Virus record (IMG/VR): IMGVR_UViG_3300033233_000006
Location: 62,001 to 126,000 of that record
Source of the DNA: a virus
DNA length: 64,000 bases
Reading direction: 5' to 3' (one strand)
Within the stretch, counting starts at the first letter, position 1, and each line of letters begins with the position of its first letter. Of this stretch, positions 1 through 36,793 are shown piece after piece. The notes below the pieces were generated by a model. The model saw only the letters and a list, made by a program, of their open reading frames with translations. It ran no database searches and was not told where the DNA came from. Both the position numbers and the translations under genes were made by a program.

Positions 1-88
1 ACGCGCCCCCGCGCGCGAGCTAGCCGAACACCGTCTTCCGGTAGGCCGGGGGCGGCTTGTGCGATAGGATGGGTCCGAGGAGCAGTCC

Positions 89-958
89 ATGGCGCCGACT
101 CCCGAACCCCCGAAGATCGGTCCGAACGGGCTTCCCATCCTCTCCGGGCAGGGCCCGGTGGTTACCGAGGACAAGCTTTGGCGCTACGTCATCCGCCAAC
201 TTGGCGGCGGCGTCACCGACGTTGAGCTGCTTTCGCCCGGCGACAGGGACCCCTACACGAAGGGGACGATCGAGGAGGGCGAGTCGGATCGCGACGACTG
301 CTTCATGCTCACGAAGGAGTGGTACGCCCACCGCGTCGGCTTCCCCAAGATCATCTCGGTCACGCTCGGCAACCGGCAGAGCGCCTACCTCATGCCGCCG
401 GACTGCATCGAGGTGATCGACCTCTGGCTTCCGAGCTTCCAGCTGCCGAGCCTCGACGCCGACCAGTTCTCCTACACCTACTTCTCGCTCCTCTTCGGCC
501 AATGGACGAATCCGAACGCCGCGCCGATGCCCTATTCGGATCTCGTGCAACGGCTCCAGTATCTCGCCACGATCGGACGCGTCTTCTCGTCCGACCGCGA
601 CTGGGAGTACAACAACACGACGCGCATCTTGGAGATCCTTCCGCCGCCGTCGGCGATCGGGTCCTTCACAGGCTTCCCGTTCGGCTCCGACGTGCGCGCG
701 CTCGTCACGATCTGGACGAACCACATCGACGTGCGACAGCTCGACCCGATGGAGCTTGGCTTCTTCAGGCGGAAGCTCGTTGCCAGGGCCCACTTCACGC
801 TCGGCAACAAGCGCATGAAGTTCATGGAGACGGCGAGCGCCGGAGGAAACGTCCAGCTCAACGGCGAGAAGCTCATCGAGATCGCCGAGAAGGCCGAGGA
901 ACAGCTGGAGAAAGACGTGATAAATTGGAAGCGAACAACGCCACTTATTTCGGGGTGA
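89..958 (+). CDS. Putative neck (head-completion) protein, T4 gp13-like
   Basis: A 289-residue protein with ATG start preceded by GAGGAG. The N-terminal part (about residues 25-60) has the pattern of gp13-type neck proteins: a short helix followed by an RQLGGGVTDVEL segment, then a region rich in aromatic residues (FSYTYFSLLFGQW) and a later EYNNTTRILEILPPP strand resembling the gp13 pattern of an asparagine-rich loop followed by a beta strand. Position at the head of a neck, tail-completion and sheath series agrees. The last 14 codons (VINWKRTTPLISG) use A/T-ending codons unlike the rest of the gene and are duplicated behind the downstream HNH gene. The family assignment rests on pattern and synteny, not on a search. 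Confidence 0.6.
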   Translation: MAPTPEPPKIGPNGLPILSGQGPVVTEDKLWRYVIRQLGGGVTDVELLSPGDRDPYTKGTIEEGESDRDDCFMLTKEWYAHRVGFPKIISVTLGNRQSAYLMPPDCIEVIDLWLPSFQLPSLDADQFSYTYFSLLFGQWTNPNAAPMPYSDLVQRLQYLATIGRVFSSDRDWEYNNTTRILEILPPPSAIGSFTGFPFGSDVRALVTIWTNHIDVRQLDPMELGFFRRKLVARAHFTLGNKRMKFMETASAGGNVQLNGEKLIEIAEKAEEQLEKDVINWKRTTPLISG

Positions 959-962
959 ATTG

Positions 963-1517
963 ATGCCGAAATGGCGAGCGATACCAGGGTGCTTTGGCTA
1001 CGCGGCCTCGCGAAGCGGGAAGATTCTGTCGATCAAGACCGGCATCGTCCGCAAGTCTTCGCCGGTACGGTCGGCTAGTAGACCGAACGACCGACACCGC
1101 CGCGTGTCGCTCTTTGTCGGCGGTCGCCACAAGACGTTTGCGCTGCATCGGCTCATCGCGCGGACGTTTATCGGGCCGCCGCCGACCGCCAAGCACCAAG
1201 TGAACCACAAGAATGGCCGAGCCGACGACAACCGCGCTCGGAACCTGGAGTGGGTGACGCCGAAGGAAAACGGCGAGCACGCCGCGAGACTTCGACTGGT
1301 AGCGAGCGGAGAACGACACGGCACGCACACGAAACCCGAGACGAGATGCTTCGGCTCGAAGCACGGACGATCGAAGCTGACAGAAGCGGACATCCTTGAA
1401 ATCCGCCGTCGCGGGGCCAACGGCGAGTCCCAAGCGGTTCTCGCCGCTGCTTTCAGCGTGACACAAGCGTCGGTTTCGATGATTCTCACGAGACGGACAT
1501 GGCGGCATGTTGCATGA
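963..1517 (+). CDS. Free-standing HNH homing endonuclease (NUMOD4-like, HNH_3 type)
   Basis: About 184 residues. The N-terminus IPGCFGYAASRSGKILSI matches a NUMOD4-type DNA-contact segment. The core HQVNHKNGRADDNRARNLEW carries the HNH catalytic pattern (His, Asn, later Asn-Leu-Glu-Trp). The C-terminus (SKLTEADILEIRRRGANG onward) is a small helix-turn-helix common in intron-encoded nucleases. ATG at 963 follows the stop of the neck gene by four bases; a TTG at 960 is an alternative start. It sits between the neck gene and a copy of that gene's original 3' end, so it is an insertion at the gene terminus. No group I intron core is apparent around it. Confidence 0.85.
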   Translation: MPKWRAIPGCFGYAASRSGKILSIKTGIVRKSSPVRSASRPNDRHRRVSLFVGGRHKTFALHRLIARTFIGPPPTAKHQVNHKNGRADDNRARNLEWVTPKENGEHAARLRLVASGERHGTHTKPETRCFGSKHGRSKLTEADILEIRRRGANGESQAVLAAAFSVTQASVSMILTRRTWRHVA

Positions 1518-1519
1518 TG

Positions 1520-1543
1520 ACGGTCCCGCTCATCTCGGGTTAG
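1520..1543 (+). other. Remnant of the original 3' end of the neck gene
   Basis: Directly behind the HNH stop, 1520-1543 reads T-V-P-L-I-S-G-stop (ACG GTC CCG CTC ATC TCG GGT TAG). The neck gene upstream of the HNH gene ends T-T-P-L-I-S-G-stop with ACA ACG CCA CTT ATT TCG GGG TGA. The C-terminus is therefore present twice with different codons. The GC-rich copy behind the insert matches the codon style of the phage and is taken as the ancestral end; the AT-leaning copy attached to the gene is taken as the replacement. Confidence 0.7.
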
Positions 1544-1552
1544 GAGTAGAGC

Positions 1553-1945
1553 TTGTCCTTCACCCCGCCGTACAAACTCGATCCGTATGAGTCCGTGAGG
1601 AGCCCGGGAGGGCTCCCCATCCTCATGCAGCGCGGGATGCACGACGTGATCGAGAAGGAGAAGGACGGGAGCCTACACGACAAGTTCGTAAAAGCCTTTA
1701 ACGTTATCGCGTTCTCGCTCGCGGAGTCGGGTCGGTTGAAGGAGGGCCACCTCACGCTCACCGGGAGCAAGGGGCTCGCGCGCGAGAAGGAAGTGAAGCG
1801 GCTCCCCGATACGCTGGCAAAGCAGCGACAGCTCGTGAAGTGGGCCGACAAGCTCAAGGCCCAATACCCGGGCCGCTACGACAACTCGTGGTGGAACGAC
1901 CCGTACCGCGGCGTCGCGCCCAAGCCGCAAGCGGCTCCGCGATGA
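1553..1945 (+). CDS. Hypothetical virion-region protein, 130 aa
   Basis: TTG start at 1553 with AGGAG about 8 bases upstream; that Shine-Dalgarno overlaps the remnant stop codon of the neck gene, indicating the two genes were directly adjacent before the HNH insertion. The protein starts MSFTPPYKLDPYESVR and is mostly hydrophilic and helical with many Lys/Arg in its second half (LTLTGSKGLAREKEVKR). No family recognised. Its place between two neck-type genes suggests a structural or assembly role. Confidence 0.75.
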   Translation: MSFTPPYKLDPYESVRSPGGLPILMQRGMHDVIEKEKDGSLHDKFVKAFNVIAFSLAESGRLKEGHLTLTGSKGLAREKEVKRLPDTLAKQRQLVKWADKLKAQYPGRYDNSWWNDPYRGVAPKPQAAPR

Positions 1946-1954
1946 GGTGCGCCC

Positions 1955-2692
1955 GTGGCTGACATCCAGAACCCGAATCCCCCTTCGTATCCCTATGGGC
2001 AGTTCAAGCAGCTCCCGAGCGCAGACGGAGTCAGGCCGCTGCCCGACACCTTCATCGGGCCGCGTGACAAGGCGTACGCCGACTTCAAGGCGCGCGACAA
2101 GATCCGCATCCGCGGCGTCGACGCCTTCTACTACGCCAAGCTCGACCAGCCGAGGCGCATCGACAGCAAGGACGCGACGCCGCTCAAGAACTCGGAAGCC
2201 GTCGCCGAAGACGTGCTCAAGCGGCGGTCACACGCCGGTATGGCGCTCTACGGCGAGAACGCGCTCGTCGGCGAGCGGCTCGACTCGATCCACCGCGAGA
2301 TCCAGCCCGACTGGGCCCCCGACAAGGCGATCCTCGTGCGCGGCCTCCCGTTCGAGGTCCAGCAGGAGCAGAACGCCAACGAGCGCGGCGGCACCTACGT
2401 CCGGCAGCTCAAGTTCGATCTCGCTCGCGCCTCGTGCGAGACCGAGTGGAGCATCGCGCCCGAGCCGGGCGACATCGTCCGCATCCCGAAACTCTTCGAC
2501 ACGACCGGCGACGACTCGGGCGGCTACTTCGACGTGCTGAAAGTAGACGAGGACGAGACCAGGTTCGGCAGCACGGGTTTTTTCGTCTGCTACCGTCTCT
2601 CACTCTTCCGGTCGAGTCGCTACCCGGCGGAACGCAAGCTGTCGCCGGAGAAGACCACGACCGAACAAGACTTGCAGGAGCGAAGCACATGA
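1955..2692 (+). CDS. Putative neck protein, T4 gp14-like
   Basis: A 245-residue product, GTG start. The C-terminal half contains EPGDIVRIPKLFDT and, after YFDVLKVDEDETRFGSTG, the strand FFVCYRLSLFRSSRY. This order (a GD-hx-hP segment followed by hFxhxxVxxxxP/TFFxxG and a strand of hydrophobics) resembles the gp14 family of neck proteins, where the same region follows gp13. Synteny (gp13-like, HNH insert, small protein, this gene) supports it. It overlaps the next start by four bases (ATGA), a sign of translational coupling. Confidence 0.55.
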   Translation: MADIQNPNPPSYPYGQFKQLPSADGVRPLPDTFIGPRDKAYADFKARDKIRIRGVDAFYYAKLDQPRRIDSKDATPLKNSEAVAEDVLKRRSHAGMALYGENALVGERLDSIHREIQPDWAPDKAILVRGLPFEVQQEQNANERGGTYVRQLKFDLARASCETEWSIAPEPGDIVRIPKLFDTTGDDSGGYFDVLKVDEDETRFGSTGFFVCYRLSLFRSSRYPAERKLSPEKTTTEQDLQERST

Positions 2693-3084
2693 GACTCGCG
2701 ACCGAGATCCTCGCTGACCAGCTCGTCGCCTCGCTCTCCGAGGCGTGCTGCGGCGAGTGCGGCTCCATGAGCAAGCAGCTCGGCAAGAAGGTCTGCTGCG
2801 GCGGCCACAAGGAAGAGGAGAAGCCCGCTCCGAAGACGGAGGCGGCTGACCGCCACACGCATCCCTTCATCAAGAGGTGCGTCGCCGCGATGACGGGCAA
2901 GGAAGGGTCGAAGGACCCCCACAAGCCGGCCCAGCTCTCCTCGGCCTTCGCTATCTGCGTAGCCTCCAAGAAGAAGCACCCAGGTGCGGCGAAGGAGAAG
3001 GCGAAGGAGGGCGTGCCCGAGAAGAAGATGGCCGCCTACGAGAAGGCGCTCTCGGTCGCTCGCAAGGCGCGGGCGAAGAAGTAG
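2689..3084 (+). CDS. Hypothetical Cys- and Lys-rich protein, 131 aa
   Basis: ATG at 2689 overlaps the previous stop and has AGGAG 9 bases upstream. The N-terminal third has a Cys cluster (EACCGECGSMSK, VCCGG, then HTHPF and KRC) that could bind metal. The C-terminal half (AFAICVASKKK then a Lys/Ala-rich helix) is strongly basic. The function is unknown; a DNA- or head-vertex-associated role is only a guess from charge and position. Confidence 0.75.
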   Translation: MRLATEILADQLVASLSEACCGECGSMSKQLGKKVCCGGHKEEEKPAPKTEAADRHTHPFIKRCVAAMTGKEGSKDPHKPAQLSSAFAICVASKKKHPGAAKEKAKEGVPEKKMAAYEKALSVARKARAKK

Positions 3085-3804
3085 ATGTTCTCGCTCAAGG
3101 TCACGGTCAAGGGCGATCCCAAGGAGATCGAGCGCCGACTCCGGCTGGCGAGCCAGCTCACCGCGGAGAACGCGAGCTACAAGATCGCCGAGCTGGTGCG
3201 CCAGAAACTTCCGAGCGGCGGCTGGTACGACATCTACCGCCACGCGATCAACTACTTCGTCTCCAAGGACGGACGGAGGTGGGCTGTCGCGGGCCGGTGG
3301 GAGACGCAGTTCTCGACGTTCCCCGCCGAGGGGACGCTGATCGAGTTCGAGGGCGCTGGCGATGTCGCTGACGTGCTCATGCAGTACAGCCCGTGGGCGA
3401 TCGACCAGATCCCAGCCATCTCCGGCGGTTACCGACTCACTGTTGTCGCTCGACCGGCTCCTGCGGGGGATGTCGAGACGCGTCGGACGGCCATTATCGG
3501 CGCTCGCGCGGCGATCCTCGACAAGCTCAAGGCGGCGGGTGCGACGCCGACCGATGGGTTCCCGGCCATCAACGGACGCGTCTACGCCGACATCGCTTTC
3601 ATGGCGAAGGCGCTCGAACACGGGCTCGCAGGGCTCAAGCGCGTTCCGCACTGGGTCGTCGCCTTCAACGAGGCTCGACACGAGATCGCCAACTGGACCG
3701 AAGAATCAAGAGGGCGCATCCAGGCCATTCTCGATGGGTCAGCCGATTTCAAACCCAAGGCTCAGCCGATGCCGCCGGAGATGGATCGCGCGTCGGGCGC
3801 GTAG
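3085..3804 (+). CDS. Hypothetical tail-completion-region protein, 239 aa
   Basis: It begins immediately after the preceding stop. The N-terminus (SLKVTVKGDPKEIERRL) has a beta strand then an amphipathic helix, as in HK97 gp10-like tail-completion proteins, but similarity is too weak to assign. The middle holds WAVAGRWETQFSTFPAEGT and VLMQYSPWAIDQIP. Genomic place between neck proteins and the sheath suggests a tail terminator or joining protein. Confidence 0.7.
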   Translation: MFSLKVTVKGDPKEIERRLRLASQLTAENASYKIAELVRQKLPSGGWYDIYRHAINYFVSKDGRRWAVAGRWETQFSTFPAEGTLIEFEGAGDVADVLMQYSPWAIDQIPAISGGYRLTVVARPAPAGDVETRRTAIIGARAAILDKLKAAGATPTDGFPAINGRVYADIAFMAKALEHGLAGLKRVPHWVVAFNEARHEIANWTEESRGRIQAILDGSADFKPKAQPMPPEMDRASGA

Positions 3805-3852
3805 CATCGGTAGCTTGTGGCGGCTTCAGCCCGAGGTCCGTAGAATGCCGAC

Positions 3853-4662
3853 ATGGGCTCGCGCGAGTTCGGGCGGCGTACAGGTAATCTGGACAAGCTC
3901 GACTACGACCAGGCCGTCGCCGAGGGTCTCGGTGCCATCTTCGACGACGAGAAGAACCAGTACTTCCTCCCGATGGTCGACTCGAAGGGGCGCGGGATCT
4001 TCATCAGGCCCCAAGGGAGCGATGCGCCCATCGAGATCAGGCGGGCGCTCGTCGTCTTCAAGAAGCCCGAACCGACCAACGTCAACGACATCCTTCCGAT
4101 GATCGTCCTGAACCTCGACGACATCTCGTTCAACGCCAAGCGGCTCCTCGGCGTCACCGAGCAGTATCGCCTCGCCTCGGAGGGCGCCCATCGAGTAAAG
4201 ATCGGGAACGAACTGGGGTGGGACTCGTACGAGACCCGTGAGCAGGAGTGGCCGTTCGATCTGATCTACACCATCGAGTGCTGGAGCAGGTTCCGAGTCG
4301 TCGCAAACCAGCTTCTCCAGATGGCTCAAGTCAAGTATCCTGGTTACGGTTCTCTCACGGTCACCGACAGCATCAACAACGAGCGCGTCTATCACACGTT
4401 CCAAGAGGGCACCCAGGATCTCACGGAGGTCGACTCGCTGGTCGAACGCTACTGCGGCTACAGCCTGACCATCAGAGTCGAAGGCGAATACTCCAACGAA
4501 AAGATCGCCTTCGACGCCCCCGCCTTCCTCGGCCAGACCATTCCTGCTTCTGGGGGTGGCGGTGGAGGGGGTGGAGGTGGTGGAATAGACCTTGGCCCCG
4601 GCGGTCTCATCGGCGATGGCCGTCCTACCGAGCGTGTTACGCTCATAGAACCCGACGAATGA
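3853..4662 (+). CDS. Putative tail terminator or neck-region protein with polyglycine tract
   Basis: A 269-residue protein. The core contains DDISFNAKRLLGVTEQYRLA, EQEWPFDLIYTIECWSR and YSLTIRVEGEYSNEK, a mixed alpha/beta pattern; the position before the sheath gene fits a gp15-like tail terminator, but this is inferred. Eleven consecutive Gly codons near 4552-4584 separate the core from an acidic C-terminal tail. There is no clear Shine-Dalgarno before the ATG at 3853, but a TAGAAT hexamer lies at 3841-3846, so the transcript may be leaderless. Confidence 0.6.
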   Translation: MGSREFGRRTGNLDKLDYDQAVAEGLGAIFDDEKNQYFLPMVDSKGRGIFIRPQGSDAPIEIRRALVVFKKPEPTNVNDILPMIVLNLDDISFNAKRLLGVTEQYRLASEGAHRVKIGNELGWDSYETREQEWPFDLIYTIECWSRFRVVANQLLQMAQVKYPGYGSLTVTDSINNERVYHTFQEGTQDLTEVDSLVERYCGYSLTIRVEGEYSNEKIAFDAPAFLGQTIPASGGGGGGGGGGGIDLGPGGLIGDGRPTERVTLIEPDE

Positions 4663-4690
4663 GCGCAGCGCGCTCGCGGAGTATGACGAG

Positions 4691-4987
4691 ATGAGCTTTT
4701 ACCAAGTCGTCGGCAGCGGCCTCTGGATGATCGACTACCCCCACGGCGACGCCAAGGCCCACCGGACAGGCGACGTGTTCGAGGCGACGCCCGACAACCA
4801 GTCCGTCACCAGAGGACTTCAGATGGGTCGCCTTCGCGAGATGTCCGACCGCGAGTCGACGGCGCTTCGCGCGGCCAAGGTCGCGACCGCCGTTTCGCCG
4901 ACCTCCGGTCCTCCGGTAAAACTCGCCGCACCGGCTGTTCTGGCGGCGCCGACCCCGATCACACCTACGCCCAAGCCGGGCAAGTAG
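4691..4987 (+). CDS. Hypothetical small protein, 98 aa
   Basis: Starts MSFYQVVGSGLWMIDYPHG and ends with an Ala/Pro/Thr-rich tail (AAPAVLAAPTPITPTPKPGK), a composition typical of flexible linkers. The compact N-terminal part could be a small beta domain. It is directly upstream of the sheath gene in the same transcription direction. No family recognised. Confidence 0.7.
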   Translation: MSFYQVVGSGLWMIDYPHGDAKAHRTGDVFEATPDNQSVTRGLQMGRLREMSDRESTALRAAKVATAVSPTSGPPVKLAAPAVLAAPTPITPTPKPGK

Positions 4988-5004
4988 GATAGGAGCCCGC
5001 GAAC

Positions 5005-7761
5005 ATGGCGAACACTCTTGAGATCCTGAGCCCCGGCGTCTTCGGCTTCGAGAAGAAGCCTGGGCGCGCGCCTCAGTCATTCTCCCCGGCCAAGATGGGC
5101 ATCGTCGGGTGGACCGATCAGGGTCCGTCCAACCTGCCGGTCCAGGTCCAGTCGTTCGAGGACTTCAAGGCCGTCTTCGGCGACATCTCGACGCTCAGCG
5201 TCGTTCCGCTCGCGGTGCAGGCGTTCTTCGCGACGGGCGGCCAGGCGGCGTGGGTCAGCCGAGTCGTTCCCGCCGACGCCGTCGCCGCGTCGGTGCAGGT
5301 CGATCCGGTGCCCGGTCCGACGAAGTGGACCTTCACGTCGCTCGGGGAAGGCACCTGGGGCAATTCGACGACGGTCCGCATCCGCGGCAACCAGAACTTC
5401 CTCGACCGCACCCCCGGCTCGGTCAAGTGGGACAAGTTCGACCTCCTCGTTCTCCGACCGTTCCCCGTCGATCCGACGATCATCACGGCGGCTGAGACGT
5501 TCGAGGCGATCACGCTCACCGACGCGACCGCGACCGACTACCTCGGGACGGTGATGGCCGACCCGTCGCGGCGCTCGACGCTCATCACGGTCACGGCTGG
5601 CATCAGCGGCGTGCCGACCGGGCTCCTCGGGGCGAACTACCAGGACGAGGTCAGCGGCGTCGGCACCGGCATCCTGACGAACTTCGTCTTCACGCTCCTC
5701 AACGGGAATGTCCTTCCGGGCAACTACCGGCTCGTCGCGGGCGGCACGCAGGTCAACGACCAGGCCCAGACGCCCACCGGCCTGATCAACAACTCGAACA
5801 TGCTGTTCACGCTGACAGTCCCCGGTTTCCCGATCGCCGACGGAACGCTCAAGCTCTTCTACGCGAAGTTCCCGTCGCTCATCGCGCAGGCGCTCACGGT
5901 CACCGGCGCGATCAACGGCGTCAACAAGGACTTCACAGTCGCCATCGGCGCGTTGGGCAACGCCGTCTACCGCGAGGGCACGGTCTTCCGCATCCGCTAC
6001 GCCGCTGTCGCGGGCGCGTCGCCGCAGCTCCTCTTCACGGTCGGCGCATCGCCCGCGACCTACGACCTCTCGACCACGCCGCTCACGAGCACGCCGATCA
6101 TGCCCGGCTCGGTCTCGATCGCGGTGACCACGGTCGCGAACGGTGCGCAGGTCATCACCGACGACGGCAACGGGAATCTCACCAACCCGCTCGCTCTGGC
6201 GGCACCCGGTACGATCGACTACGTCACGGGCGCGATGACGGGCATCACCCTCACGCTCACGGCGCTGTCGACGGTGGTCGCGACTTACAACTCCTCGCTC
6301 GCGATCACCAAGGGCGCATCGAGCAGCAACGTGGCGCAGGGCGTTGCGCTCGTCGGCTCGATCGACGGCACCGGCGTCAACACGATCAACCTCACGAACT
6401 CGACGACTGCGCCGACCACGAACGGCGCCATCTCGTTCAGAACGTTCGTCGCCCCGCTCGCCGGCACGACCATCCTCATCGACTACGTGAGGACTGGCAT
6501 CATCAACTCGTCACTCGCGGGCGTGCTCACGGGCGACGTGAACCTCGTGCCGACCCACACGATCGACTTCACGACCGGTCTCACCCAGTTCACGACGACG
6601 TTCCCGCCGCTCACCGGCACGACGATCGACGCCACCTACCAGACCGGTCTCGTCATCAGGGACAACGGCCTCGGGCGCCTGATCGGCAACGTCAATCCGA
6701 CCGGGGTCAACACGATCGACTACGCCACGGGCGCGGTGAACGCCCAGTTCTCGACGCCGCCGCTCAGCGGAGCGACGCTCTACTCGAACTACGACACGCT
6801 CGCGCCGTTCCTCGACTTCCCGCTCACCGGCGGACTCAACGGCAGCGCGATCAGCCGGTCGGACATCTCGCTGGCGGGACCGCCGATCACCGGGCTCGAA
6901 GCGACGAAGAAGGGCATCTACGCCCTCGATCTCGTCGAGGAGCCGCTCAACGTCATCGTGCCCGACTTCGAGGGCTCGCAGTTCGTCCAGTTCGACCTCG
7001 TGCAGTTCGGAAAGAACCGGGCCGACAACCGCTTCCTCATCATGGGCTTCGGCTTCGGCACGACGGTCCCCCAGGCGATCCAGTACGTCCTCGTCACCCA
7101 GGCGTGGGACGTGAAGTTCGGAGCGATCTACTACCCCAACATCTACTTCACGAACCCGGTGACGGAGCTGGCCCAGCTCATGCCGGTCACGCCGTTCGCA
7201 GCCGGCATCTACGCGAAGACGGCCCACAACAAGAACGTGGGCAAGGCTCCCGGTGGCGTCGAGGACGGAGCCCTGGACGGCGAGGGCACGGTCGGTCCCG
7301 AGTTCAAGGTCGAGCTGGCCGACCGCAACGCGCTCTACCAGGCCAAGATCAACCCGATCATCTCCTCGCAGGCGACGGGTCTCTCGGTCTGGGGCGTCCG
7401 CACGCTCTCCAACGAGCGCCGGTGGCGGTACGTCAACGCCCGCACGCTGCACGACTACCTCATGTACGCGACGAGCCTCCAGCTCCAGTGGGCCGTCTTC
7501 GAGAACAACGGGCCTCCGCTCTGGGCGAAGATCAGCACCGCGCTCAAGGGCTTCTACGGGTCGCTGTTCCGACTCGGCTACTTCGCGGGCGATACCGAGG
7601 CGCAGGCGTTCGACGTGGTCTGCAACTCGACGAACAACAACCAGAAGACGATCTCGCAGGGCAAGGCGATCATCGACATCGGGTTCGCCCCCAACACCCC
7701 AGCCGAGTTCATCATCTTCACGCTCAAGCAGCCGGTCGGCCAGCAAGCGTCGCTGGTCTAA
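5005..7761 (+). CDS. Tail sheath protein
   Basis: A 918-residue contractile tail sheath subunit. The N-terminus SPGVFGFEKKPGRAPQSF and the SFEDFKAVFGD and FFATGGQAAWVSRVV segments are typical of sheath domain starts. The C-terminus (NERRWRYVNARTLHDYLMY, then FYGSLFRLGYFAGD and the TNNNQKTISQGKAIIDIGFAP stretch) is the conserved handshake region. It is longer than usual because of a central insertion (about 5600-6850) of repeated beta units with the pattern DDGNGxL...TIDYxTGA...PPLxGTT...YxT. A related unit recurs in the fibre at 29564. The stop is followed at once by an inserted endonuclease gene. Confidence 0.93.
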   Translation: MANTLEILSPGVFGFEKKPGRAPQSFSPAKMGIVGWTDQGPSNLPVQVQSFEDFKAVFGDISTLSVVPLAVQAFFATGGQAAWVSRVVPADAVAASVQVDPVPGPTKWTFTSLGEGTWGNSTTVRIRGNQNFLDRTPGSVKWDKFDLLVLRPFPVDPTIITAAETFEAITLTDATATDYLGTVMADPSRRSTLITVTAGISGVPTGLLGANYQDEVSGVGTGILTNFVFTLLNGNVLPGNYRLVAGGTQVNDQAQTPTGLINNSNMLFTLTVPGFPIADGTLKLFYAKFPSLIAQALTVTGAINGVNKDFTVAIGALGNAVYREGTVFRIRYAAVAGASPQLLFTVGASPATYDLSTTPLTSTPIMPGSVSIAVTTVANGAQVITDDGNGNLTNPLALAAPGTIDYVTGAMTGITLTLTALSTVVATYNSSLAITKGASSSNVAQGVALVGSIDGTGVNTINLTNSTTAPTTNGAISFRTFVAPLAGTTILIDYVRTGIINSSLAGVLTGDVNLVPTHTIDFTTGLTQFTTTFPPLTGTTIDATYQTGLVIRDNGLGRLIGNVNPTGVNTIDYATGAVNAQFSTPPLSGATLYSNYDTLAPFLDFPLTGGLNGSAISRSDISLAGPPITGLEATKKGIYALDLVEEPLNVIVPDFEGSQFVQFDLVQFGKNRADNRFLIMGFGFGTTVPQAIQYVLVTQAWDVKFGAIYYPNIYFTNPVTELAQLMPVTPFAAGIYAKTAHNKNVGKAPGGVEDGALDGEGTVGPEFKVELADRNALYQAKINPIISSQATGLSVWGVRTLSNERRWRYVNARTLHDYLMYATSLQLQWAVFENNGPPLWAKISTALKGFYGSLFRLGYFAGDTEAQAFDVVCNSTNNNQKTISQGKAIIDIGFAPNTPAEFIIFTLKQPVGQQASLV

Positions 7762-7779
7762 GGCGATAGGAGATAGAGC

Positions 7780-8619
7780 ATGGCTCGCGCTGCGGCAACT
7801 TGGACCCAAACCGAAAAGGACTTCCTCACGAAGTCCTATTCGTCGTTTGGTTCCAAGAAGTGCGCCGCAGCGCTGGAGAGGCCCGAGGGAGCGGTTCGGA
7901 CGATGGCGAACCGCCTCGGGCTCAAGCTCGCCGCAAAGAACGCGACTCACCGGAAGCTCGGCCACAGCCAGAAGGCCGAGATCGTCGCGCTCTACCGGAG
8001 CGATCCGACCATCTCAGCGCAGGCGATCATCGACCAGCTCAAGCTCCCGGTGAAGGTCGATTGCGTCTACAAGGCGCTCGCCCAGGCCGGAGTCAAGCGC
8101 GGAACGACCGGCCAACGCAACCGACGGTGGACCGATGCCGAGGAACTGGTCATCGTTGCCGACTACGTCGGAGGAATGTCGCAGCCCGAGATCGCGGCGG
8201 CTCACAGCACCCGCCCTGGCGTCATTTCGGGCATCCTCAAGCGACGCGGCGTGAAGACGCGGCATCAGGAGCGGGAAATCTCGGATGTCGAGTGGACCGA
8301 GATCATCCGGCGTTATCAAGCGGGCGACGTAATCGTCGAGGGGATCATGTGTCGATACACACCCGACTTCGTTTTGACGAGCGCAGACGGAGACGAGACG
8401 CTGGTCGAGGTGAAGGGCCGCTGGTTCACGCGCTCACGGCTCAAAGTCGAGTCGTTCCGTCTGCTTTACCCACACGCCCATCTCGAAGTGTGGGACGCCT
8501 CCGTCCTGACGGATCTCGGAATCCTCCGTTCGATCACCGAGCGTAACAATGAGCGGCGTCGTAAGGCGAGCGCGACGCCAAACAGCTCCCTAATAAGCTC
8601 AAGCACACAGGAGTCATAA
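7780..8619 (+). CDS. Free-standing homing endonuclease, PD-(D/E)XK type with Myb/HTH repeats
   Basis: A 279-residue protein. The C-terminal nuclease core has YTPDFVL followed about 12 residues later by LVEVKGRW, the Asp and Glu-x-Lys of a PD-(D/E)XK fold. Three helix-turn-helix-like units precede it (TWTQTEKDFLTKSYSSFGSK, RRWTDAEELVIVADYVGG, and QKAEIVALYRSD between them). Its first seven residues, MARAAAT, are identical to those of the tail-tube gene that follows, but with different codons. It thus occupies the original tube start codon and ribosome-binding site (GATAGGAGATAGAGC), and the tube gene begins again after it. Confidence 0.8.
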   Translation: MARAAATWTQTEKDFLTKSYSSFGSKKCAAALERPEGAVRTMANRLGLKLAAKNATHRKLGHSQKAEIVALYRSDPTISAQAIIDQLKLPVKVDCVYKALAQAGVKRGTTGQRNRRWTDAEELVIVADYVGGMSQPEIAAAHSTRPGVISGILKRRGVKTRHQEREISDVEWTEIIRRYQAGDVIVEGIMCRYTPDFVLTSADGDETLVEVKGRWFTRSRLKVESFRLLYPHAHLEVWDASVLTDLGILRSITERNNERRRKASATPNSSLISSSTQES

Positions 8620-8625
8620 GTCCTT

Positions 8626-9117
8626 ATGGCTAGGGCAGCTGCGACCGACCCGTACCTCAACTTCCGGTTCCACGTCACGGACCCGGCTGGCGGCAACCTG
8701 GACCCGGTCGCCGGGTTCACATCCGTCGCGACGCCCGAGATCAGCATCGAGCCCGCGCCCTACCGCGAGGGCGTCATGCGCTGGACGCAGAAGTACCCGG
8801 GCGTCCAGTCGGTGAGCGAACTCCAGCTCTCGAAGGGCACCGTCCGTCGAGAGTCGGACTTCTTCGCGTGGGTGCTCCGCGTCATCAACGGCGGCGTGGC
8901 GTCGTACCGCACCGACCTCCAGATCGCGGAGTTCCACATCACCGACGCCTTCGGCATCAACGGCGCCCCGTCGCGCATCATGCGCGTGCGCGAGGCGTGG
9001 CCGGGTGCGACGAAGCCGATGGCCGACAAGGACGCGTCGGGCTCGGAAGTCGCCATGCAGTCGCTCACAATTCAGCTCGAAGAGCTTGAGCTAGAGATCA
9101 TCCCCTCCCCGGTGTGA
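8626..9117 (+). CDS. Tail tube protein, T4 gp19-like
   Basis: A 163-residue protein of the expected size for a contractile tail tube. It shows the typical order: N-terminal beta strand NFRFHVTD, loop with EISIEPAPYREG, KYPGVQSVSELQLSKGT, and a C-terminal SLTIQLEELELE strand. It lies after the sheath, as in most myoviruses. Codons 3-7 (AGG GCA GCT GCG ACC) differ from the synonymous CGC GCT GCG GCA ACT that begin the upstream endonuclease. The nearest Shine-Dalgarno, GGAG, lies inside the end of the endonuclease gene. Confidence 0.9.
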   Translation: MARAAATDPYLNFRFHVTDPAGGNLDPVAGFTSVATPEISIEPAPYREGVMRWTQKYPGVQSVSELQLSKGTVRRESDFFAWVLRVINGGVASYRTDLQIAEFHITDAFGINGAPSRIMRVREAWPGATKPMADKDASGSEVAMQSLTIQLEELELEIIPSPV

Positions 9118-9169
9118 GCCCGGAAGCCCCCGTTTACGGCCCCGTCGGAACCTTCTGAGGACCGCGCCC

Positions 9170-9724
9170 ATGAGCCTTTTCGATCGCATCAAGCCGCTGC
9201 ACGAGTTTGACCCGAGCAAGCATGCAGCGGCGGCTGCAAAGGCGCAAAAGACGCTCGGCGCGTTCCAGAAAGCACCGCACGCGCCCACGGGCCACACACC
9301 GGCGATGCAAGCCTTCGACAAGCCCATGCAGGCGAGGAACCAGGCGAAGGCCGACGCGCGCAAGCACGAGGACGCCGGCCCCTCACTCGGTGCTCGCATT
9401 GGCGCCCGAGCGCTGACCGAGCAGACCGAGGCGGAGGCCGCGGCCCATCCCAGGCCGCTCCTCGAAGACCTCGTGGCGGCCCGTTCGGTGCGGTTCTTCT
9501 CGCCGCGCGACATCCAGTACGCGATCGAAGACCTCGCTACGGCAGCGGAGCGGTTCCAAGAGCGAGACTCGCGCTTCAGCTACATGAAGCTCGGTCGTCG
9601 CGGGAAGGACAGCTGCGAGGACGAGAAGAAGGCCAAGGCCATGCTGGAGGCCGCGCTCAAGGAGCTTCGCGAGTCGGCCAACGCCGTGAAGAAGTACGCG
9701 GACCTCTGCGACGCCGACTACTGA
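9170..9724 (+). CDS. Hypothetical tail-region protein, 184 aa
   Basis: Begins MSLFDRIKPLHEFDPSKHAA; rich in Ala, Lys and Gln in the first half (low-complexity, probably extended) and helical at the end (KKAKAMLEAALKELRESANAV). The middle part SPRDIQYAIEDLATAAERF suggests a helical bundle. No family recognised. It lies between the two tube-like genes and may assist tail assembly. Confidence 0.7.
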   Translation: MSLFDRIKPLHEFDPSKHAAAAAKAQKTLGAFQKAPHAPTGHTPAMQAFDKPMQARNQAKADARKHEDAGPSLGARIGARALTEQTEAEAAAHPRPLLEDLVAARSVRFFSPRDIQYAIEDLATAAERFQERDSRFSYMKLGRRGKDSCEDEKKAKAMLEAALKELRESANAVKKYADLCDADY

Positions 9725-9776
9725 GTCGCGCTCGCATCGATGACGTGGCCGCGGGGTAACACTGGTCGGGAGGTTC

Positions 9777-10046
9777 ATGATGCTGCCAACTCCGCCCGCC
9801 GCGGTTGCGGTGGAGATGCCGCTACAACCGCTCATCGCGCCAGCGCAGACGCACGGCTTGGAGATCGAGCTAGTCGTTCTCACGAACCGGATGATCGAGC
9901 GCCTCGTGGACAAGCGCGCGAGCCTCTCCAACGACGAGCGCCGGCTGCTGGAGCGGACTGCGAAGGCACGCGTGGCCGAGATCCTCAAGCGCACTGCCGT
10001 CGATGTCGCCGAGACGATCAACGGTGTGGTGAAGCGGGCGCCTTGA
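9777..10046 (+). CDS. Hypothetical small helical protein, 89 aa
   Basis: ATG start with GGGAGG 6-7 bases upstream. The second half (LTNRMIERLVDKRASLSNDE onward) is predicted helical and charged, ending in TAVDVAETINGVVKRAP. The codon pattern is that of a real gene. No homology recognised. Confidence 0.6.
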   Translation: MMLPTPPAAVAVEMPLQPLIAPAQTHGLEIELVVLTNRMIERLVDKRASLSNDERRLLERTAKARVAEILKRTAVDVAETINGVVKRAP

Positions 10047-10074
10047 GCTACCATGACGAGGTGAGAACCGCGCC

Positions 10075-10629
10075 GTGGCTAGAAGCGTAAATCAAGATCC
10101 GTTCATGTCGCACAATTTTGCCCTGATTGACATCCCGGTGCAGGCCGCCATTCCCACGGCCTTCCCGATCAAGCTCCTCCAGTCGGCCATCACATCGGGT
10201 ACCTTCATCGGCTTCTCCCGCATCTCGATGCCTTCGCTCTCCATCGAAACGAAGGCGATCAAGGAGGGCAACTGGCCGCCGATTCACAAGGTTCTCATGG
10301 GCTTCACCGATGGTGGCGAGGTGACGCTGGAACAGGCGCTCGTGTCGATCAATGCCGACATGTACTTCTGGTTCCAGCAGGCGATCTGGGGGCGGATCGC
10401 TCCACGCCGCGACTTTCTCATCGTCAACACGCGGGCCGACAAACGAATCCCGCAGCGGCTCACCCATCTCGAAGGGTGCATTCCGACTGGCTGGAAGCCC
10501 AGCTCCGACCTCGTCGGCCTGACCGGCGAGGTGGTCATGGAGAGCCTCACGATGGCTGTGACCCGGGTGAGCATCATCCCTCTGCCCATCCCCGTTGCTC
10601 CGCCGACAACCATCGCCCCCCCGGGCTGA
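10075..10629 (+). CDS. Second tail tube-like protein
   Basis: GTG start, 184 residues. It shares the tube layout with the 8626 gene: a strand-rich start, SRISMPSLSIETKAIKEGNW (compare the EISIEPAPYREG segment of the tube), GGEVTLEQALVSINADMYFW, and a C-terminal strand VVMESLTMAVTRVSIIPLP. Phages with two such genes use one as the main tube and the other as an initiator or tail-tip protein. Which role applies here is not decidable from sequence. Confidence 0.7.
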   Translation: MARSVNQDPFMSHNFALIDIPVQAAIPTAFPIKLLQSAITSGTFIGFSRISMPSLSIETKAIKEGNWPPIHKVLMGFTDGGEVTLEQALVSINADMYFWFQQAIWGRIAPRRDFLIVNTRADKRIPQRLTHLEGCIPTGWKPSSDLVGLTGEVVMESLTMAVTRVSIIPLPIPVAPPTTIAPPG

Positions 10630-10641
10630 TCCACAAGCCCC

Positions 10642-10671
10642 TTGCCAAGTCAGAGGTGAAGCTAGTATCCT
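10642..10671 (+). promoter_or_regulatory. Possible sigma70-type promoter
   Basis: TTGCCA (10642-10647), 18-base spacer, TATCCT (10666-10671), placed 27 bases before the ATG of the triple ribbon-helix-helix gene in a true intergenic gap. Matches to consensus are partial, so this is a weak call. Confidence 0.35.
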
Positions 10672-10698
10672 CATCGGAGCGTTGAGGAGCACTACCTC

Positions 10699-11181
10699 AT
10701 GGGTCTGGCTGGTCAGGGTCGTCTGAATTTTGTGATCCCGGAAGCCATCGAGCAGAGGCTCGATGTCTACTGCGATCGCACGGGGCGCACGCCCACCGAT
10801 GTCATCCGCCAGCTCGTGAGCGAGGTGCTCGAAGGCGATCGCGAGCTGTCCAAGGCAGCAGCCGAGCATCCCACCGGGCGTCGGACGAACATTCCGCTCG
10901 GCTACGGCGCGCTTGCGCGCCTCGACGAGTTCGTGCGCGAGGGGAAACACGCGTCAGCCGCGGCGGTCATCGCCACGCTGCTTACCCAGTTCCTCGCGAA
11001 CCGCGTGGACATGAAGGCCGACGAGGTGGTCATCGTCCACGTTCCGCTCCCGGTGTCGGTCTACTCCGCGCTCACGGCTCAGTGTGCGCGGAACGGAACG
11101 CCGATCGAGAAGTTTCTGGCGAAAGAGGCGGCGAGCGCCGCGAACGCCGTCCACGCAAAGTCCAAGGCGAGGCGCAGTTAG
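10699..11181 (+). CDS. Three-unit ribbon-helix-helix-like protein, possible regulator
   Basis: In 160 residues the same strand-helix-helix pattern occurs three times: LNFVIPEAIEQRLDVYCDR (about residues 9-45), TNIPLGYGALARLDEFVREG (about 64-102) and VIVHVPLPVSVYSALTAQC (about 114-148). Each begins with alternating hydrophobics, then a helix with a hydrophobic face and a second helix. Ribbon-helix-helix proteins are usually single units that dimerise; a three-unit chain is odd. It sits among tail genes behind its own possible promoter. A DNA-binding role is inferred from the fold pattern only. Confidence 0.6.
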   Translation: MGLAGQGRLNFVIPEAIEQRLDVYCDRTGRTPTDVIRQLVSEVLEGDRELSKAAAEHPTGRRTNIPLGYGALARLDEFVREGKHASAAAVIATLLTQFLANRVDMKADEVVIVHVPLPVSVYSALTAQCARNGTPIEKFLAKEAASAANAVHAKSKARRS

Positions 11182-11193
11182 GGAGGCTGAACA

Positions 11194-12042
11194 GTGCCCG
11201 GAATCACCGACGTTCCCGGCGTTGAGGTGTGGGGGGCCGGAAGGGGGCAGTACGACATGCCCTGTGGGTGGGTCGACGAGCAGGGCAAGGCCCACAAGAA
11301 GGTCGTCCTCCGCGAGATGATGGGCACGGAGGAGGACATGATGGACGACGATTCCGTCCCGCGTCACACCCGAACGACCAACGTCCTCACGGCGTGCATC
11401 GACGAGCTGGACGGCGTGAAGGACAAGGACAAGATCCGCGACATCGTTGCTGATGAGGTGAAAGTCGGAAAGGGGATCACCTCGACCGACCGCATCGCGC
11501 TCATGGTCTTCCTGCGGCGCGTCTCCCTCGGCGACAACTACAAGTTCGAGCGCCGGTGCCCGTGCCCGCGCCAGCACCTCTGCAAGAACCGCTCGCTCGA
11601 CCTGCGGACCATCGGGATCAAGGCGGTCCCTGACGAGCGCGTCCCGAAGCGCCGCGTCGAGGTCACGCTCCCGCGCTCCAAGAAGAAGGCCGTGCTCCGA
11701 GTGATGACAGCCAAGAGCGAAGGTCCGCTCGTGGCCCTCCGGCCCACCTCGAAGGACTTGCGCTCGGTGGCGATCACCGCACGCGTCGAGTCCCTCGATG
11801 GTCAGCTCCTCGACAACCCCAGGATCGCCGTCGACATCGTGAAGGCGCTGCCGCTCGACGACCGCGAGTTCATCCGGTCGTGCTACGACAAGATGGAGGC
11901 CGACGTGGACACCTCCGTCGAGGTCCAGTGCGACCACCCCCTCTGCGCAGCCGAGTTCTCCTTCCCGCTCGACCTGGGCCAGAGTTTTTTCTCGAAGGGG
12001 GAGGAAGATGGGGCTACGGAGAAGGATCTGCGCTGGCTGTAG
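11194..12042 (+). CDS. Tail assembly chaperone / gp26-like baseplate protein (zero-frame product)
   Basis: GTG start, 282 residues. It begins MPGITDVPGVEVWG and has LREMMGTEEDMM and DRIALMVFLRRVSLGDNYKF, a pattern of the T4 gp26-like baseplate/assembly family, then two cysteine clusters (CPCPRQHLC and CDHPLCAAEF). The gene lies between the tube and the tape measure, the classical place of the gpG/gpGT-type chaperone pair. A slippery heptamer lies 52 bases before its stop and opens a -1 frame extension, so two products are expected. Confidence 0.7.
   Translation: MPGITDVPGVEVWGAGRGQYDMPCGWVDEQGKAHKKVVLREMMGTEEDMMDDDSVPRHTRTTNVLTACIDELDGVKDKDKIRDIVADEVKVGKGITSTDRIALMVFLRRVSLGDNYKFERRCPCPRQHLCKNRSLDLRTIGIKAVPDERVPKRRVEVTLPRSKKKAVLRVMTAKSEGPLVALRPTSKDLRSVAITARVESLDGQLLDNPRIAVDIVKALPLDDREFIRSCYDKMEADVDTSVEVQCDHPLCAAEFSFPLDLGQSFFSKGEEDGATEKDLRWL
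11985..11991 (+). promoter_or_regulatory. Slippery heptamer for -1 ribosomal frameshifting
   Basis: T TTT TTC in the zero frame (codons AGT-TTT-TTC) at 11985-11991 is a perfect X-XXY-YYZ slippery site. A slip of -1 leaves the zero frame, which would stop at 12040-12042, and enters the frame that runs to 12311. Tail assembly chaperones of many tailed phages are made by such a shift. Confidence 0.75.
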
Positions 12043-35651: not shown

Positions 35652-36023
35652 TCAAGCACTTACGGAAATCCTCACACAGTGCTTGACGCCCAGGCTCTCA
35701 TCGCGGTAGAACGTGCCCACTCGATGAGCATCGGGTTGGCGCTGTCGGACTGAACGCTACTCACGTCGATCAAATGCGGGACGCGTCGAAAGGCGCGTTC
35801 AGGAAGTGATCGAAGGTCGTCGACTACGGGTCTCGCGGACCCGGGACGGCGGCTGACGCAACCGATGCGGTTGCGACTGGGTGCGGGGAGCTTCGACGAC
35901 GAGAGGGGAAGGGAAACCGGACCAGCTCGCGCGCGACCCGTCGGCTGTGTCCCTTCGGGACCCGAACCGACAAGGCTCGATGTGCTTCGACTCGGGAGGG
36001 CCGCCAGGGAGACCTGTGCGGCC
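35652..36023 (+). ncRNA. Candidate structured non-coding RNA
   Basis: The 456-base gap 35633-36088 has no convincing gene but many perfect inverted repeats: TCAAGCACT (35652-35660) with AGTGCTTGA (35678-35686); CTCATCG (35697-35703) with CGATGAG (35722-35728); TCGATCA with TGATCGA around 35766-35812 enclosing ACGCG/CGCGT; CGGGTC-TCGCG-GACCCG near 35827; CGCAACCG-ATG-CGGTTGCG near 35857; and GTCCC-TTC-GGGAC near 35948. The series ends in an intrinsic terminator at 35999. Strand is assigned from that terminator. The promoter is not clear. Confidence 0.45.
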
Positions 36024-36030
36024 TTTTCTC
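35999..36030 (+). terminator. Rho-independent terminator
   Basis: GGCCGC-CAGG, loop GAGA (a GNRA tetraloop), CCTG-T-GCGGCC, then TTTTCTC. This is a ten-base-pair stem with one bulge followed by a T tract, between the candidate RNA and the next virion gene. Confidence 0.85.
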
Positions 36031-36088
36031 GTTCTAGGCGCCTGGTGCGCTTCTCTCGCGCAAAGCATAATGGGTTCGGAGTTGATCC

Positions 36089-36793
36089 GTGCCCAACATC
36101 AACCGAGCCGTCGACGCCGGTCTTATTTCGACCTCGGTACCGGCATCGGTGGTGATGTGGCCCGAGCTTACTCCGGCCCCGCACACCAAGCCGAACCAGG
36201 ATGAGCTGTTCGTCTTCCAGTACTGGCCCGAGTCGCTTACCGACACGGAAGCGCCGGACTACGCGGAAAAGAAGATCCCGGGCGGATCGCACCCGCTCTA
36301 CCAGTGGACGGGCGGCACCGGACGCGACATCAGCTTCACGGCCCACTTCACGGCTGAGATCGACATCTCGCCGGCCAGCGACGCGACGCTCGACCAGGTT
36401 CGCCTTCTCCCATCTGGTCGTTACACGGTCGACGTGGCCGCTGCTGTAGCTCGGTTGAAGTCCTTCCTTCGCGGCGATTACCAGGACGGGTCGCTCAACG
36501 CCGCGGCCAAGCCGCCAAAGAAGCTCTACCTCGCCCTGGAGAACACGAAGCTCGGTGGCGATCACGAGGAGATTCTCGTGATTCTCCGCCAAGCTCCGAT
36601 CGTCTACCAGTCGTGGTTCGCCAACGGCTCGCCGCGGGTGGTCGAGGTAGCCTGTTCGTTCTCGGAGTGCGTGCAGCGGAGCAACGCCGACAGCGAGAGC
36701 ACTTCGCAGATCCAGTTCATCGGACGGTCGTCGTTCGAGACGGCTGGGAAGCGCTACAAGTACCGCGGCGCGGTAGATAGGGCGATCGGCTGA
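36089..36793 (+). CDS. Putative baseplate/tail-tip protein, CIS tube protein-like
   Basis: GTG start, 234 residues. Residues about 35-85 contain FVFQYWPESLTDTEAPDYAE, KKIPGGSHPLYQW and GGTGRDISFTAHF. This series (F-x-Y/F-x-PE-S, a P-G-x-S-H-P-L segment, then G-x-G-R-x-I-S-F) is typical of contractile-system tube/baseplate adaptor proteins that carry a LysM-like end. The gene starts a new transcription unit after the terminator. Its precise T4 equivalent is uncertain. Confidence 0.6.
   Translation: MPNINRAVDAGLISTSVPASVVMWPELTPAPHTKPNQDELFVFQYWPESLTDTEAPDYAEKKIPGGSHPLYQWTGGTGRDISFTAHFTAEIDISPASDATLDQVRLLPSGRYTVDVAAAVARLKSFLRGDYQDGSLNAAAKPPKKLYLALENTKLGGDHEEILVILRQAPIVYQSWFANGSPRVVEVACSFSECVQRSNADSESTSQIQFIGRSSFETAGKRYKYRGAVDRAIG

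Follow-up and report, generated by a model that had tools for sequence, protein, structure and literature searches.

The tail tube locus and its two start regions

The window analysed here is a stretch of 64,000 nucleotides from a virus record of 131,251 bases, and it carries a contractile-tail module in the order sheath, nuclease, tail tube (these features, and those of the HNH case at 89-1543 below, lie on the + strand). The tail sheath gene at 5005-7761 (Pfam Phage_sheath_1C, 3.3e-7) lies 5' of the insertion, and in relatives with an empty site it adjoins the tube gene directly. It is followed by the Shine-Dalgarno sequence AGGAG at 7768-7772, 7 nt from the ATG, which is the native signal of the tube and is now used by the nuclease. 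The nuclease gene occupies 7780-8619, and its first seven codons (7780-7800) derive from the tube: they are the native codons 1-7 of that gene, captured and joined in frame to the rest of the nuclease; the orthologous segment of the related contig G005 equals the empty allele. The product contains Myb/HTH repeats and a PD-(D/E)XK motif (TPDF...EVKG), and matches PHROG_323 over residues 7-74 (1.2e-12), the resolvase family PHROG_190 (1.3e-7) and, both weakly, DUF1064 and TnsA-like proteins. Putative re-initiation signals of the tube were found at the 3' end of the nuclease gene: a Shine-Dalgarno-like AGGAG at 8609-8613, which lies within the nuclease gene 12 nt upstream of the new tube start, and a gap of 6 nt between the nuclease stop and the tube start. 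The tail tube gene (gp19 fold; Pfam Phage_T4_gp19, 1.4e-14) extends from 8626 to 9117 and opens with the replacement codons 1-7 (8626-8646).

The two starts encode the same peptide. Nuclease codons 1-7 are ATG GCT CGC GCT GCG GCA ACT and tube codons 1-7 are ATG GCT AGG GCA GCT GCG ACC, both MARAAAT. Codon 2 is the same in the two copies, and codons 3-7 are all synonymously different (CGC/AGG, GCT/GCA, GCG/GCT, GCA/GCG, ACT/ACC), which gives five of six codons unlike the native copy. The shared MARAAAT and the synonymous differences in codons 3-7 had been pointed out in a sequence-only reading of the window, and both these and their coordinates proved exact when the letters were read again. The pair scores p=0.007 in a generic terminus-anchored comparison against mismatched loci. 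A hairpin at 8609-8613 pairs AGGA with UCCU; RNA folding around both starts showed nothing unusual (AGGAG hairpin against shuffles, z -0.73), and we therefore make no claim of a special hairpin for coupling. The phage has two gp19-fold proteins, one being the captured tube. The second, tail-tube-like protein is encoded at 10075-10629, starts with GTG and reads MARSVNQDPF, and is also present in L001 and in G001-G005.

The sequence-only reading had called the inserted gene a PD-(D/E)XK homing endonuclease. The TPDF...EVKG motif and the HTH repeats agree with this, as both a nuclease domain and a DNA-binding region are present; the activity of the window copy is doubtful. Its C-terminal domain retains TPDF...EVKG and lacks the stretch RSxWE..WLD..W.YE (the RSxWE helix and the W.YE strand), so that the core is incomplete. 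This stretch is present in G005, whose nuclease has HTH_23 and a DUF1064-type core, and in L145, the G002 relative and OLIVR4. The missing part of the core falls at 8280-8380 of the window (nuclease residues about 165-195). It was probably lost by an in-frame deletion, and the window nuclease may be inactive because of its absence. The copy may nevertheless be locked in place despite lost activity, since the new start of the tube depends on the nuclease gene.

With the single window sequence as query, no close relatives of the nuclease were found in IMG/VR, INPHARED or PLSDB, and two weak domain matches were obtained only in GTDB contigs; orthologs were recovered only via related phage contigs and a two-sequence profile. 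An AlphaFold model of the window nuclease, for which no alignment was supplied, was of low quality (mean pLDDT 43). In the Burkholderia phage BcepSauron (L157, 1363-2334), a GIY-YIG nuclease is joined to an array of HTH repeats like that of the window nuclease. This combination with a classic homing-nuclease domain supports a DNA-targeting role for such repeats, and comparison of the two proteins suggests that catalytic domains are exchanged on a shared DNA-recognition array.

Empty and occupied alleles of the tube site

Comparison with phages lacking the insert, which the sequence-only reading had proposed, revealed the ancestral start MARAA(A/S)T of the tube exactly at the site of the nuclease. 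In seven relatives without a nuclease at this site (L001, L005, L006, G001, G002, G003 and L152), the sheath stop is followed by a Shine-Dalgarno sequence and then by an ATG that opens MAR(A/S)A(A/S)TDPYLN. In L001, about 35 bases lead from sheath to tube without a nuclease between them, and the tube begins ATG GCA CGC GCG GCA GCG ACC GAC (MARAAATDPYLN). L005 and L006, whose tubes are 78% identical, begin ATG GCT CGC GC(T/A) GCA AGC ACT GAC, and the empty tube of G003 begins ATG GCT CGT GCA GCG TCC ACT GAT CCG TAT TTG AAC TAC AGG. A GGAG core upstream of the tube ATG was also found in L001, L005, G002 and G003. MARAA(A/S)T thus is the tube's own N-terminus, and the alignment of alleles places the nuclease where the tube start was, 3' of a GGAG-type ribosome-binding site.

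Other relatives are occupied at the same site. In G004 and G005 the nuclease, beginning MARAASRWTREEDEV..., shares 40% identity with that of the window, and L145 carries a third nuclease lineage, beginning MARAASQTLEVED..., which ends at the contig end. We therefore observed a presence/absence polymorphism at a fixed site, with the window, G004/G005 and L145 occupied and the seven relatives named above empty. All three tube-site lineages of the nuclease begin MARAA(A/S). The sequence-only reading had named a finding that would speak against it, namely that such starts are usual for nucleases of this family at places other than tube genes. The relatives that we looked at away from the tube begin otherwise (BcepSauron MSGIYK, OLIVR4 MADIQK, and the 342-residue protein of G002 MLLCLR/MGRPRT), and none has MARAA, so that the capture reading stands.

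G005 and G003 allow the occupied and the empty allele to be compared base by base. The G005 nuclease starts ATG GCT CGT GCA GCG TCC AGA TGG, and its codons 1-6 are base-identical to those of the empty G003 tube (codons 2-6, 5/5); the sequence between the sheath and the captured codons is also closely similar in the two. The G005 tube itself starts ATG GCC CGC GCT GCA AGT ACA GAT CCG TAT TTG AAC TAC AGG. Its codons 2-7 are all changed relative to G003 (6/6) with amino acids unchanged, including a swap between serine codon families that requires three bases (TCC to AGT), and its codons 8-14 equal the empty G003 allele. The proportion of synonymous changes between the two is thus 6/6 in codons 2-7 and 28/140 over the remaining tube codons (Fisher p=1.1e-4). 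When the empty L152 is taken for comparison, the recoded tract covers codons 2-11 with nine of ten codons changed (p=1.2e-5). For the window tube against L001, the tract has 4/6 changes and the rest 34/125 (p=0.058), which is not significant for the window alone. A reduced tube expression, suggested as possible in the sequence-only reading, is one of the weaker points of that reading; in G005 the new tube start has a Shine-Dalgarno sequence, GGAGG, at a distance of 8 nt, together with a TAATG overlap. The in-frame fusion to the old tube start and ribosome-binding site, with a new start behind it, had been proposed from the window only; the empty alleles and the base identity in G005 bear it out. 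Judging from these alleles, the nuclease did capture the tube start, and the replacement goes no further than the target codons; recoding, which the sequence-only reading had not singled out, is the key feature.

The empty alleles themselves differ in a short tract. The empty allele of G003 (L151) and that of G002 (L153), each at 2501-2533, are near-identical to L152 (likewise 2501-2533) except in codons 9-11. Across the tube, only four synonymous codons separate G003 from L152, three of them being codons 9-11, in which G003 has CCG TAT TTG as in the occupied G005; the same CCG TAT TTG is common to G002 and the occupied G004. These codons in G003 (and G002) may be a conversion scar or mark a cleavage-resistant allele.

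A second insertion in the window and recurrence at other loci

A second case, which the sequence-only reading had not recognised, was observed in the same window. A connector-like gene at 89-958, with a weak match to the head-tail adaptor family PHROG_211 (E 0.003) and uninserted homologs in L007-L015, is targeted at its 3' end by an HNH homing-endonuclease-like gene at 963-1517 (Pfam HNH_3, 9.9e-12; PHROG_59, 3.8e-39). The insertion point lies inside the last eight codons. The C-terminus used by the connector-like gene is TTPLISG* at 935-958 (ACA ACG CCA CTT ATT TCG GGG TGA), and a further copy, (T)VPLISG*, is stranded beyond the HNH gene at 1520-1543 (ACG GTC CCG CTC ATC TCG GGT TAG). The uninserted gene of L007 ends ...AGC GTT CCG CTC ATC TCC GGG TAG; it resembles the copy 3' of the HNH gene, which indicates that the downstream copy is the native end. 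The third-position G+C content is 0.42 in the last 12 codons of gene 89-958 and 0.88 in the gene, and this recoded end is rich in codons that the phage avoids (CCA, CTT and ATT, by codon usage). On this comparison, the HNH insertion is the mirror image of the tube case, with the recoded terminus on the host gene and the native one stranded beyond the nuclease.

We surveyed 80 viral HNH loci that are related to the HNH gene of the window, comparing the two flanks of each and using mismatched loci as a control; when the HNH genes of the phage itself and the nuclease of the window were added, this made 88 loci in 63 clusters. The clear cases in the survey were L034, L082, a terminase group (L028-L031 and L041) and a peptidase group (L054, L057, L070 and L078). 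L034 is located at the start of a DNA methyltransferase (CYNDSWKDHIVPE), where 10 of 12 degenerate codons are changed. At L082 the start of a Pyr_excise glycosylase is concerned, the HNH gene having MRLWDYRLIPVLP and the glycosylase MRLWHYKLLPVLP; by its sequence, this is an in-frame start capture by a nuclease type unrelated to that of the window. In the terminase group, the HNH gene lies at the Walker A region of the terminase large subunit gene, the stranded native N-terminus is cut at LYGGAAGG, and the working terminase gene carries a diverged replacement N-terminus. In the peptidase group, the HNH gene ends in frame within the terminus of an M15 peptidase. L088 and L091 scored just slightly above the null and were not accepted as cases.

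Among named-phage loci with an annotated HNH gene, the pattern was found in one of 16, and the other 15 had no terminal duplication. The one is in the cultured Mannheimia phage vB_MhS_587AP2 (L123, 1446-2054), in which the HNH gene lies in the 3' end of a cytosine (m5C) methyltransferase whose C-terminus is present in two diverged versions, MCTNVMKWIGERLSAYL... and MAVPCMRWIGQRLNDYL... The other HNH genes of the phage (G000:26210, 35848/36397, 49001 and 113244) have no convincing terminal duplication. A scan of the whole genome for recoded hexapeptide pairs was noisy, as only PLISG* was meaningful among 168 pairs. Outside the window, a 1170-residue open reading frame at G000:C1:26502-30011 has a segment in an alternative frame, ENAELLKLTLDNGESIKVTPDHKM, that is intein-like; a weak HNH match is also present. 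Also outside the window, directly behind a double-HNH gene at 35710-36771, the gene at G000:C1:36861-38462 encodes a 533-residue protein of repeated WHPTKN-type zinc-ribbon units.

Origin of the recoded termini and relation to known elements

We consider it most probable, at roughly 0.86, that a free-standing homing-endonuclease element lies inside the coding DNA of the tube, inserted after about codon 6-7 and not between genes, and that it captured the native start and carried along a synonymously recoded replacement start. The endonuclease most likely recognises conserved codons at a gene end. An insertion there would destroy the gene, and a successful element would therefore carry a substitute terminus in synonymous codons. 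Such a terminus would keep the protein, would not rebuild the target, and would remove a direct repeat that allows loss of the element. At a start, the nuclease takes the native start and its Shine-Dalgarno sequence: its frame is fused to the native tube start, so that it uses the opening codons of the tube and the ribosome-binding site before them. The right end of the element supplies a new ribosome-binding site and the lost N-terminal codons in synonymous form, by which the host gene would be re-initiated behind the nuclease. We infer that the nuclease drives homing, and that recoding guards the occupied allele from cleavage and prevents its loss by recombination between the copies.

The recoded terminus might instead be ordinary synonymous divergence, co-converted with the element from a diverged phage without any selection for recoding. 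This is possible, although on the present evidence we hold it to be unlikely. The low third-position G+C at the 3' case starts about five codons before the insertion, and in the terminase, peptidase and Mannheimia methyltransferase cases there are amino-acid differences between the two copies too, which are compatible with a diverged donor and with recoding alike; a fungal precedent, described below, has been interpreted as horizontal transfer (PMC3630166). However, recoding in G005 covers every one of codons 2-7 and stops where identity with G003 resumes. Furthermore, 33 of 39 amino-acid-conserved degenerate codons differ in five pooled cases, compared with 22.3 expected at full synonymous saturation (P=1e-4), a count with a mild bias, as the window case, unlike the G005 ortholog and the cases from the survey, was chosen on account of its synonymous differences. 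A self-splicing intron or intein, in which the nuclease would lie after tube codon 7 and native exon 1 would be spliced to the rest, is highly improbable. As in some intron ORFs, the reading frame of the nuclease continues that of the tube codons upstream of it, but directly before the tube stands another intact MARAAAT, recoded and preceded by a separate Shine-Dalgarno sequence, which would be superfluous under splicing. Rfam group I and II introns gave no match at E<1 in window positions 1-12000 and none at gathering level in five other loci, and the reading frames are separate, with their own stop and start; a group I intron or intein was thus rejected. That the nuclease merely happens to begin MARAAAT, by chance or convergence, can be dismissed: the peptide is short and alanine-rich, and the generic score alone gives p=0.007, but the empty-site comparison refutes this, as the captured codons are base-identical in G005 and G003 and preceded by closely similar intergenic sequence, and the same start recurs in all three tube-site lineages and not in relatives elsewhere.

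The anatomy of these insertions resembles that of several known elements in part. In fungal mitochondrial mORFs (Allomyces atp6; Glomus atp6, atp9, cox2 and nad3), an endonuclease ORF lies inside a coding gene near its end, the replacement C-terminus is synonymously diverged and the native one is stranded, an arrangement attributed to the horizontal transfer of a terminus from a foreign source (PMC3630166). The phage elements share with them the replacement of a gene terminus by a synonymously diverged copy and the stranding of the native one. The fungal elements concern C-termini and LAGLIDADG or GIY-YIG enzymes, whereas the tube case concerns an N-terminus with PD-(D/E)XK, and the second case a C-terminus but with HNH. 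Unlike the mORFs, the tube nuclease captures the native start and Shine-Dalgarno sequence, and the flanks in G005 are without foreign divergence. The elements of T4 are free-standing genes that lie between genes and often cut at remote sites, or they divide a gene into two functional parts (PMC2988022). T4 seg and mob, which act by intronless homing, are like the phage cases in combining a nuclease with DNA-binding repeats and in showing insertion polymorphism beside conserved essential genes; in contrast to this type, the present elements lie inside coding DNA and the gene is repaired with recoded codons. In ShiLan, an out-of-frame HNH insertion that is neither intron nor intein was described in a phage methylase (PMC11855218). 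Here too an endonuclease is inserted in a coding gene, but the methylase frame runs on through it and includes it, and there are no replacement codons. Searches of open-access papers gave no report of recoded-terminus homing elements for phages or at start codons, and a 2023 survey of phage nuclease genes (PMC10448857), examined for host termini that are duplicated, truncated or fused, has no passage on such elements.

Recoded replacement of a gene has also been designed on purpose. Engineered home-and-rescue drives (e.g., HomeR) reportedly combine a nuclease inserted in an essential gene with a recoded version of the rest of that gene that resists cutting. A nuclease in an essential gene and a recoded remainder are shared with the phage element as a functional analogy only; these drives differ in being engineered, CRISPR-based and used in insects (PMC7968924). 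The odds seem about even that phage homing endonucleases repeatedly become natural recoded-rescue drives, which are directed at the most strongly conserved terminal codons of essential genes and in which selection has changed nearly every codon of the terminus, so that the occupied allele resists cutting and does not collapse by recombination. If this is true, the partly recoded empty alleles of G002 and G003 (codons 9-11) would be natural resistance or conversion alleles.

These findings mean that care is needed with annotated starts of phage genes beside such nuclease genes and with truncated duplicate termini. A recoded terminal repeat across a nuclease gene is a sequence signature that would map recognition sites and reveal unrecognised homing genes. 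In summary, a homing endonuclease without a splicing device could live inside an essential coding sequence by borrowing its start (or stop) and rebuilding the gene synonymously. Engineered recoded-rescue gene drives are built on this principle, which would here occur naturally, and the occupied, empty and partly recoded alleles allow it to be compared.
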